The notes below the pieces were generated by a model. That model made no database searches, had not been told where the DNA came from, and was given only the letters and a program-made list of their open reading frames with translations. From contig JAIMKT010000038.1 in the NCBI GenBank assembly GCA_020692245.1, forward strand, positions 1 to 35,432: 35,432 nt of DNA. Direction: 5' to 3'. The position numbers were made by a program, and so were the translations under genes. The stretch is from Microcoleus sp. GA_180221_E-2-1-MAG-45_12 (GTDB taxonomy: Bacteria > Cyanobacteriota > Cyanobacteriia > Cyanobacteriales > JAAUUE01). Below, one piece after another: positions 2,249 to 21,086 of the stretch; the first letter of the stretch is position 1; every line of letters begins with the position of its first letter.

Positions 2249-2272
2249 GTAGGGGCGCAAGGCCTTGCGCCC
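2249..2272 (+). repeat. REP-like hairpin, GGGCG class, with 5' GTAG
   Basis: GTAG at 2249-2252 is followed directly by a perfect 20-base palindrome, GGGCGCAAGGCCTTGCGCCC, at 2253-2272. It lies between the divergently facing ends of the DUF3593 start and the PP2C stop. The GTAG-plus-hairpin layout is that of REP elements recognised by RAYT proteins; a RAYT is encoded at 15705-16298. Confidence 0.7.
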
Positions 2273-2295
2273 TTACTAGATATATAGTACCTAGA

Positions 2296-4886: not shown

Positions 4887-4910
4887 GGGCATAAAGCCTT
4901 ACGCCCCTAT
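4887..4910 (-). repeat. REP-like hairpin, GGGCG class, reverse orientation
   Basis: The 20-base imperfect palindrome at 4887-4906 is the same class as the one at 2253-2272. Read on the minus strand it is ATAG followed by GGGCGTAAGGCTTTATGCCC, so the GTAG lead is changed to ATAG. It sits between the NfeD and SPFH genes. Confidence 0.6.
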
Positions 4911-5944: not shown

Positions 5945-5993
5945 AGCGGCTCAAGCGTTTACTACGGAGGAAAGCGGCTAAAGCCGTTACTAC
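5945..5993 (-). repeat. Two tandem REP elements (GTAGTAA-CGGCTTTAGCCG class)
   Basis: The copy at 5973-5993 reads on the minus strand GTAGTAACGGCTTTAGCCGCT, with a perfect 12-base palindrome. The copy at 5945-5965 is the same element with a one-base loss and changes in the stem. Both point the same way, 23 bases after the SPFH stop. Confidence 0.75.
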
Positions 5994-7049: not shown

Positions 7050-7069
7050 GTAGTAACGGCTTTAGCCGC
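7050..7069 (+). repeat. REP element (GTAGTAA-CGGCTTTAGCCG class)
   Basis: GTAGTAACGGCTTTAGCCGC, with the same perfect 12-base palindrome as at 5975-5986 but on the opposite strand. It lies between the dps start and the FkbM stop, nine bases from the latter. Confidence 0.75.
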
Positions 7070-13535: not shown

Positions 13536-14300
13536 GTGTTACGCCCCGGTTATTTATTCCCAGATTATTTCCAGCCACTATTCACCCAATACTCAACACC
13601 CAAAACCAAAGTGGATAAAAGATTAAACCCGTTTATTCTAGAAGGCAGAGTCATTCATTGGCTACACCAGCTCCAGCCTAAATGCATTTTACTTGCAACA
13701 GCTCAAGGAGAAGTGATGATCAAGCTCAGTAAAGATTTGCGCCGTCATTTTTTGTGGCAGCCGCAGCCTCTAGCGGGAACTTGGATGCGGCTCGCTGGGG
13801 AAATCAAGAAAAATGGGGAGTACAAAGCAGATTATTTTGACTGGCTCGATCGACCAGCCTTAGAAAAAGTAGGCTCACCTATAGCTTTACCCATAGCCTC
13901 ACCGATGGCTGCATCAACAAATTCTCTCCTATTATCAAGCCCACAGGTTTCGTTACCACAGCCCCCATCAATATCGATACCAGTTGCCAACGCTGCCAAA
14001 TCTCCTGAAGTTACTAAGCCTCCAGCTTGTATTTTGGTTTGTGGGAAATCTAGCTGTCAAAAACGGGGAGCCGGGGCGGTGATTGCTAGTCTGGAAGAAG
14101 CGGTGGTCGATCAAGGTTTAGCCTCTCAAGTCAAAATTAAAACTACGGGTTGTCTGAAAAAGTGTAAACAGGGAGCTAACGTCGTCTTCCTGACTGATAA
14201 AGCCAGTTACACTGCGGTTAAACCGATCCAAGTTTCCTCTCTGCTCACCAAGCACTTTCCCCTAGAATCCCAGCCTTCTGAACAACACTCTGGGCATTAG
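13536..14300 (+). CDS. Thioredoxin-like [2Fe-2S] ferredoxin-domain protein
   Basis: Two parts are visible. Residues about 30-110 (FILEGRVIHWLHQLQPKCIL, LLATAQGEVMIKLSKDLRRH) are an N-terminal domain found with this family in cyanobacteria. Residues 165-240 form a thioredoxin-like ferredoxin: ILVCGKSSCQKRGAGAV and TTGCLKKCKQGANVVF supply four cysteines in CX4C and CX3C pairs, the pattern of the [2Fe-2S] cluster in NuoE/HoxE-type folds. A Ser/Pro/Ala-rich linker joins them. The start is uncertain: the frame opens just after a stop at 13500, and GTG 13536 is the first usable codon, without a clear ribosome site. It is probably an electron carrier; the partner is unknown. Confidence 0.8.
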   Translation: MLRPGYLFPDYFQPLFTQYSTPKTKVDKRLNPFILEGRVIHWLHQLQPKCILLATAQGEVMIKLSKDLRRHFLWQPQPLAGTWMRLAGEIKKNGEYKADYFDWLDRPALEKVGSPIALPIASPMAASTNSLLLSSPQVSLPQPPSISIPVANAAKSPEVTKPPACILVCGKSSCQKRGAGAVIASLEEAVVDQGLASQVKIKTTGCLKKCKQGANVVFLTDKASYTAVKPIQVSSLLTKHFPLESQPSEQHSGH

Positions 14301-14330
14301 AGAATGTCTAAAAAGTTTCTAGCCATTAGA

Positions 14331-14351
14331 AGCGACTAAAGTCGTTACTAC
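14331..14351 (-). repeat. REP element with compensated stem (CGACTTTAGTCG)
   Basis: Read on the minus strand: GTAGTAACGACTTTAGTCGCT. Compared with the CGGCTTTAGCCG copies, one G-C pair has become A-T on both sides, so the palindrome is kept. It lies between the [2Fe-2S] gene and por. Confidence 0.75.
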
Positions 14352-14563
14352 AAAAACCTACACTACCAGCACAAACTGTCGAAATCTTAGATTCTCAAAA
14401 AGGCTACTCTCAAAATCTTAATTCTCCCAGCGTTAATTTTTAGCAATGGCAAAGCGATCGACCTTTCCAGAGACAGCAAGACAAAAAACTTAAGATACTT
14501 AATCTCGGCTCTATGAGATCATAAGGAAAATATATAAAGTTAAAAAATTGATCTGATCTGTAA

Positions 14564-15593: not shown

Positions 15594-15705
15594 GTAGTAA
15601 GGCTTTAGCCTTTTCGTCTTATTAACGTAGTAAGGCTTTAGCCTCTTGGTCTTGTTAATTTTGCAGCTTTCTAATTTTGATGATTTTGCGCTAAAGCGCT
15701 ACTAC
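15594..15705. repeat. Cluster of three REP elements at the 3' end of the RAYT gene
   Basis: Two direct copies of GTAGTAAGGCTTTAGCCT lie at 15594-15611 and 15627-15644 (plus strand). A third, GTAGTAGCGCTTTAGCGC, lies at 15688-15705 on the minus strand; its first G is the last base of the RAYT stop codon TAG. Two direct plus one inverted copy beside the transposase gene is typical of a REP/BIME arrangement. Confidence 0.85.
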
Positions 15706-16298
15706 TATTTATCATCCCAACCTTTGCCATAGTCGCTGATCGGGTATTCTAGCCAGCAGTTACGTAGCCAGTCTCGTCCTTTTTTTTGTAAGTACCAGTG
15801 GACACTGCTTTCTTGCCAATTGTAGGGGGAGGTGACTAAATTATGTTTGACAGGGTTGTAGTGAATATAGTTTAGGGCTGTGTAGTAATGCTTTTCAGAA
15901 CGAATAGCTCGATCGCTGTAGGAATACCAAATTTTTCCTGTAGTTTGATCTTCTTGGTTCCACTGATAGGCAGTTCTGCCATGAATTAACCGAATTTTTT
16001 TACTGAGCCATTTAAAATCAACAGTTTCAGTTAATAGGTGATAATGATTGGGTAAAACAACCCAAGCTAATATAGCAATATTTTCTTGAGTAAATGTCTC
16101 GAATAGCTGACTTAGTAATTCCTGACGGCGTGGGGGAGAATTTAGCCGATGTTTATGTTCATAACAAGTGGCGGTCAGGAGGTAATGAGAACTATCTGGG
16201 ATAGGATGGGGTGGTGAGTGGGGTGGATAGCCCTTTTGGAGTCTTTGTCGAACAACTTCGGCTTTTTGTTCTGGTGATAATTTGCGATATTCATACAT
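15705..16298 (-). CDS. REP-associated tyrosine transposase (RAYT, IS200/IS605 Y1 family)
   Basis: The 197-residue protein is a single-domain HUH nuclease of the Y1 transposase type. The HUH motif is HYH in LPNHYHLLTE (about residues 92-101), with Tyr in the middle position. The catalytic tyrosine lies in the NYIHYNPVKHNLV segment (about 143-155). DRAIRSEKHYYTAL is also typical. RAYTs cut and rejoin single-stranded DNA at REP hairpins by recognising a GTAG tetranucleotide next to the stem; they are usually single-copy, domesticated genes and not ordinary insertion sequences. No IS200-type ends are seen flanking it; instead REP copies abut its stop. The start is ATG 16298. Confidence 0.92.
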   Translation of the reverse strand: MYEYRKLSPEQKAEVVRQRLQKGYPPHSPPHPIPDSSHYLLTATCYEHKHRLNSPPRRQELLSQLFETFTQENIAILAWVVLPNHYHLLTETVDFKWLSKKIRLIHGRTAYQWNQEDQTTGKIWYSYSDRAIRSEKHYYTALNYIHYNPVKHNLVTSPYNWQESSVHWYLQKKGRDWLRNCWLEYPISDYGKGWDDK

Positions 16299-18295: not shown

Positions 18296-18316
18296 GGTGG
18301 GCGATGCCCACCCTAC
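18296..18316 (-). repeat. REP-like hairpin, GGTGGGC class, with GTAG
   Basis: Minus strand: GTAG followed by a GGTGGGC/GCCCACC stem with a three-base ATC loop (stem 18296-18312). It is 18 bases after the glgP stop. The palindrome differs from the GGCTTTAGCC class but keeps the GTAG lead. Confidence 0.65.
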
Positions 18317-21012: not shown

Positions 21013-21086
21013 GTAGTGGCGCTTTAACGCAGAAATAATTGCTTTAGCGCAGAATAATTGGAACTAGAAGGCTAAAGCCTTACTAC
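21013..21086. repeat. Inverted pair of REP elements with an internal partial copy
   Basis: GTAGTGGCGCTTTAACGC at 21013-21030 (plus strand, imperfect stem) faces GTAGTAAGGCTTTAGCCTT on the minus strand at 21068-21086. A stem fragment GCTTTAGCGC (21041-21050) lies between them, beside repeated AGAA(A)TAATTG sequence. It lies between ureC and glgP. Confidence 0.75.

Follow-up and report, generated by a model that had tools for sequence, protein, structure and literature searches.

By its sequence, the gene at 15705–16298 of the window (the whole stretch of 35,432 nt that was analysed, which is contig C48 of a Microcoleus sp. genome of 4.21 Mb in 132 contigs, 95% complete) is a RAYT of TnpA-Y1 subclass 2.8, and most of the dispersed hairpins among which it resides are probably not its own. 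The hairpins in question carry a GTAG tag and a TTYA loop, and are termed here 6-type or 7-type from the number of nucleotides between the two. The best explanation as a whole, to which we give a probability of roughly 0.6, is that the substrates of this RAYT would be 6-type REPs, namely the doublets at 15627–15705 and 21013–21086 and a few copies elsewhere; that a different, 7-type RAYT, either lost from the lineage or located in the unassembled part, most likely spread the approximately 80 dispersed hairpins of that type, one subtype of which was probably carried also by a TIR-bounded MITE-like element; and that the resident 6-type RAYT probably arrived independently, its nearest relatives being RAYTs of Pseudanabaena and Symploca. 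The features concerned are as follows, with the basis in brackets where it is other than the sequence itself.

2249–2276, plus strand: hairpin of a different family, GTAGGGGCGCAAGGCCTTGCGCCC (matches a family found beside other RAYT subclasses)
4887–4910, minus strand: degenerate member of the GTAGGGGCG family, with an ATAG tag
5945–5965, minus strand: degenerate 7-type REP GTAGTAAACGCTTGAGCCGC
5975–5993, minus strand: 7-type REP GTAGTAACGGCTTTAGCCG, class A
7050–7068, plus strand: 7-type REP GTAGTAACGGCTTTAGCCG, dispersed class A
14297–14389, minus strand: half copy of a MITE-like element bounded by TIRs, the carrier of class B REPs (nhmmer match, E 1.3e-20)
14333–14351, minus strand: 7-type REP GTAGTAACGACTTTAGTCG, class B, within that half copy
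15594–15612, plus strand: 6-type REP GTAGTAAGGCTTTAGCCTT
15627–15644, plus strand: 6-type REP GTAGTAAGGCTTTAGCCT
15627–15705, no strand assigned: REPIN-like doublet of one GCGC-type and one AGGC-type REP, GTAG being outermost on either side, adjoining the RAYT gene (alignment with the doublets at 21013, on contig C40, in Pseudanabaena and in Symploca)
15688–15705, minus strand: 6-type REP at the 3′ end of the RAYT gene, GTAGTAGCGCTTTAGCGC, with one base in common with the TAG stop codon
15705–16298, minus strand: RAYT / TnpA_REP gene, 197 aa, with HUH motif NHYH, W[Y] and Y motif YIHYNP
18296–18316, minus strand: hairpin GTAGGGTGGGCATCGCCCACC, from another family (in other genomes its members lie beside DHxH/YIHYNP RAYTs)
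21013–21086, no strand assigned: second copy of the 6-type doublet, its GCGC-type hairpin (21013) slightly degenerate and its AGGC-type hairpin (21068–21086) intact (doublet alignment)

The identity of the protein as an HUH/Y1 RAYT, which a sequence-only reading of the window had proposed, is borne out. The ORF scores 97.1 bits against NCBIfam NF047646 (REP-associated tyrosine transposase; cut-off 80) and is also matched by PF01797; the HxH of the HUH motif and the catalytic Tyr with its Y-x-x-x-NP signature are present as NHYH and YIHYNP, and H85, H87, Y144, N148 and P149 are invariant across 35 relatives. Among solved structures E. coli TnpA_REP (4er8) is the only credible sequence match (E 1.1e-4), and it is also the best fold match of an AlphaFold model with mean pLDDT 85 (E 4.8e-8, TMt 0.64), the next being IS200/IS605 transposases. 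The features by which subclass 2.8 is recognized, NHYH, W[YH], YIHYNP, a length of about 199 aa, a proline-rich N-terminus and residence in cyanobacteria, are all found on alignment against the table of PMC6006769 (2018), and so are flanking GTAG hairpins where that work reports GT[AG]G. As in that work some genes have REP insertions, seen here also in G090. The likeness is less close in the REPs themselves, which PMC6006769 terms long canonical for subclass 2.8, whereas the 6-type stems here are of 4–5 bp and stand 1–2 nt from GTAG; also different is that members were found in MAG contigs labelled Chloroflexi and Parabeggiatoa. Four such loci (L072, L074, L077 and L078, labelled Parabeggiatoa or Chloroflexi/Anaerolineae) have GTAG hairpins of their own, and may be due either to transfer or to misbinning of MAG contigs.

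If it acts as E. coli TnpA_REP does, the protein should bind GTAG-tagged hairpins in single-stranded form and cut next to them. The two have in common the HUH/Y1 fold and a GTAG guide at, or very close to, the foot of the hairpin, and in an alignment made by eye D129, R130 and R133 fall opposite the reported GTAG contacts E100, H101 and R104, replacements of a kind described for subclasses 2.5 and 2.7 (PMC6006769). They differ in that identity over the fold alignment is 23%, and in the shorter stems, the fixed TTYA loop and another W motif here. In the assembly of this genome, a search at E up to 10 yielded neither a second RAYT nor a relic of one, and 15705–16298 is the sole RAYT detected.

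Does a common GTAG tag make a single family of the hairpins in the window? The sequence-only reading placed three GTAG hairpins at the 3′ end of the RAYT gene, where they indeed are (15594 and 15627 on the plus strand, 15705 on the minus), and further hairpins across the window, every one of which exists where it was placed, the one at 4887 with ATAG as its tag; all lie between ORFs, apart from the single base by which the 15705 hairpin overlaps the TAG stop. It also took them to be one cognate family, and of this the part that stands is that GTAG hairpins flank the RAYT gene. By the spacing rule described below the dispersed copies are mostly of the 7-nt type, so that they are probably not cognate, and the listed hairpins are of at least four families. 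Stems beside the RAYT gene are AGGC/GCCT and GCGC/GCGC with 6 nt from GTAG to the loop, and the dispersed stems are CGGC/GCCG (class A) and CGAC/GTCG (class B) with 7 nt. The longer GTAG-led palindromes of the genome constitute two other families, GTAGGGTGGGC..GCCCACC and GTAGGGGCG..CGCCC, with 13 in all as against none with GATG, GAGT, TGAG, AGTG or CTAG as the tag. Both families are found, in other genomes, beside RAYTs of other subclasses, DHxH/YIHYNP (L154, L155) and NHxH/YI..NP (L176, L180), so that the hairpins at 18296 and at 2249 and 4887 are not close relatives of those flanking the RAYT gene. That all the listed hairpins are a single cognate family was rejected on account of stem, spacing and RAYT neighbours in other genomes.

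The expectation of GTAG enrichment beside stems genome-wide proved correct. In 789 kb of the same genome, taken in stretches without regard to REPs, there are 19 GC-rich 4-bp stems that enclose a TTTA loop, and 16 of them are preceded within 8 nt by GTAG, compared with none on the TAAA (opposite) strand of the same stems and almost none for most other loops. Sites of the form GTAGT-N5-C-TTYA-G pair at all four positions in 17 cases out of 23, without pairing having been demanded, and their main stems are CGGC/GCCG and CGAC/GTCG. The pattern GTAGTANNGNNTTTANNC is found 46 times across the 4.2 Mb of the genome and its reversed counterpart once. Placement is intergenic beyond chance, since 2 of 29 hairpin sites are inside ORFs of at least 150 aa and for random positions the figure is 80%. 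Around class A copies there is at most a weak AT-rich tail as longer conserved context.

The spacing rule comes from subclass-2.8 relatives taken from 149 genomes of the order and from public contigs, with at least one contig counted under two locus identifiers among the 42 loci. Two or more GTAGT–TTYA hairpins are near the gene at 28 of these 42, and at 1 of 64 other Y1 loci; a clear flanking REP is absent at 11 of the 42. Across the subclass GTAG and the TTYA loop are 6 or 7 nt apart, with little variation at any one locus, the departures being two 5-nt hairpins in L033, one 7-nt hairpin in L062 and an 8-nt set in L077, together with nested 4-nt readings at L052, L072 and L076. In a phylogenetic tree built from 41 proteins the 6/7 label of the flanks switches once, at a branch with support 99/98; every bootstrap tree shows the single switch, and none of 500 shuffles does. 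Both types occur within host family f28 and again within f32, which ties the spacing type to the RAYT rather than to the host. With the switch being single on the tree, spacing is a clade marker which is consistent with a recognition ruler but may reflect shared descent. Dispersed REPs obey the same rule: their spacing matches the clade of the resident RAYT in all 8 six-clade and all 14 seven-clade genomes, i.e., in 22 of the 22 that are testable, a number that leaves out G125, where both RAYTs are present, the second (L184) with flanking 7-type REPs, and the dispersed REPs are 7-type. Residue 51 is R in every six-clade protein, and nearly all proteins of the seven clade have H, Y, I or Q at this position. 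It is a serious, if tentative, possibility that subclass 2.8 RAYTs measure the distance from GTAG guide to loop by clade-specific rulers of 6 or 7 nt, with R51 invariant in the six clade, and that the present genome is a natural swap, a six-ruler RAYT among orphaned seven-ruler REPs. A narrow range of foot plus stem length has been noted for subclass 2.5 (PMC6006769).

How does the window RAYT stand with regard to this rule? It belongs to the six clade, where it adjoins the RAYTs of Pseudanabaena cinerea (83% identity) and Symploca (77%). All three REPs that flank it are 6-type. The genome at large has 88 seven-type matches (control 12) against 16 six-type ones (control 7), the seven-type hairpin being GTAGTAACGGCTTTAGCC with about 80 dispersed copies. 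Exact left arms of GTAGTAAGGCTTTAG number at least six among the matches listed (100 of 111 places). Two of the six lie at the RAYT gene, one lies at 21072–21086 and three are on other contigs, of which one has a degenerate right arm. So hairpins like the three flanking ones do recur elsewhere in the genome, as expected of a RAYT, with four further exact left arms, one of them in the window. Three GTAG-outside doublets of GCGC-type plus AGGC-type occur, at 15627–15705, at 21013–21086 and, in shorter form, on contig C40; they constitute two inverted REPs as a repeated unit, which is the mark of a REPIN, at low copy number. An equivalent doublet design is present in Pseudanabaena and Symploca, and at the Pseudanabaena RAYT locus DNA similarity of 79% extends over 619 bp and stops about 20 bases past the stop codon, after the 3′ REP. 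The 7-type REPs were most likely orphaned by RAYT loss or replacement, or only appear so through an assembly gap, for a 7-type RAYT could lie in the missing 5% or so of the assembly.

An unlikely alternative is that the resident RAYT spread all the GTAGTA hairpins, the differences of stem and spacing being drift within one cognate family. It is, after all, the only RAYT detected in the assembly, and GTAG and the TTTA loop are common to the hairpins. Co-occurrence in the order also speaks for this alternative. Genomes rich in GTAGT-N3-6-CTTYAG hairpins make up 18 of the 24 that have a subclass-2.8 RAYT and 15 of the 125 that lack one (Fisher p ~1e-9, relatedness ignored), and the same-genus genome G022 (87% complete) has neither the RAYT nor the hairpin excess. 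The sequence-only reading had looked to RAYT-less relatives for scarcity of the hairpins, which G022 provides and the 15 hairpin-rich negative genomes do not; most of the latter that were tested have some other RAYT. Against a single family are the agreement of dispersed spacing with RAYT clade in all 22 other single-type genomes, and the position of the window RAYT deep in the six clade, from which use of seven-type REPs needs an extra change on the tree. Much less probable still is that the resident RAYT formerly used 7-type REPs and its flanking REPs later became 6-type. Such an orthoswitch is described for Pseudomonas in PMC3686654, in which it is common for a REP class to lack a matching RAYT, but the nearest RAYTs, those of Pseudanabaena and Symploca, are already 6-type with the same doublets, so that the switch would have to predate them or be common to them.

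Might the 7-type REPs instead have travelled mainly as passengers, inside a TIR-bounded MITE that a DDE transposase moved without the help of any RAYT? Class B copies often have a longer common context, and among the first loci a TIR-side tail is present in about 12 of 18 copies. Full copies of the element are of about 190 bp, with TIRs of about 20 bp (AGAGGATGTCTGARAAG) and two inverted REPs, with 85–87 bp between their inward-facing GTAGs; shortened copies of about 80–90 bp exist also. The TIR pattern AGGATGYYTRARAAG has 14 matches and its reverse none, and as a short noncoding element with TIRs in several copies it is what is called a MITE. A possible direct repeat, as of a target site duplication, is seen at L003 only. 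Against passengers, most class A copies are short, stand singly and have no TIR, seven-type REPs elsewhere go with seven-clade RAYTs, and no transposase with class B TIRs was identified in the loci examined. Passenger status for the 7-type REPs generally is improbable. With class B copies often in a MITE-like element and most class A copies standing singly, some of the dispersal may nevertheless not be RAYT-driven, and the reading preferred here, with a former or unassembled 7-type RAYT, allows for that.

The proposal that this is a cyanobacterial counterpart of known RAYT–REP systems holds, and had already been published: GTAG REPs in cyanobacteria were known in 2013 (PMC3733652), and subclass 2.8 RAYTs with GT[AG]G hairpins in 2018 (PMC6006769). 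The GTAG-12, GTAG-15 and GTAG-16 families of the former, compared by description, are likewise GTAG-tagged intergenic palindromes in cyanobacteria, and some GTAG-15 dimers sit within longer palindromes, as in the class B element. In the published literature searched the exact sequences of the present REPs were not found; GGCTTTAGCC occurs in a table of PMC2817692 as a REP of another, non-cyanobacterial species. In Pseudomonas too, inverted REP doublets are units (REPINs), and REPs outlive their RAYT and persist without a matching one (PMC3116915, PMC3686654); there the RAYT subclass and REP sequences are different, and the mismatch here is also in guide-to-loop distance. While the RAYT is of a known kind, neither the 6/7 spacing rule nor the mismatch was found in the literature examined, and both are testable. 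RAYT–REP pairs are domesticated transposition systems whose specificity is structurally understood for one E. coli enzyme only, and a spacing rule that holds across a clade and switches once, together with one mismatched genome, would allow specificity to be tested with two proteins and two hairpins. Caution is also due, as hairpins near a RAYT or with its GTAG tag need not be its substrates.

Some other occurrences were encountered. In G008, G103 and G120 there are about 500–1,060 six-type hairpins and a subclass-2.8 RAYT was not found, and in G008, rated 99% complete, no RAYT match of any kind was detected. RAYTs with DHVH and YIR[EQ]NP at L171 and L183 are flanked by a further GTAG family, GTAGRACAGGCGTCYCGCCTGTY, and at G139:C67:74909-75150 a 7-type REP (GTAGTAGCGACTTTAGTC) is present as at least nine tandem 28-bp repeats.
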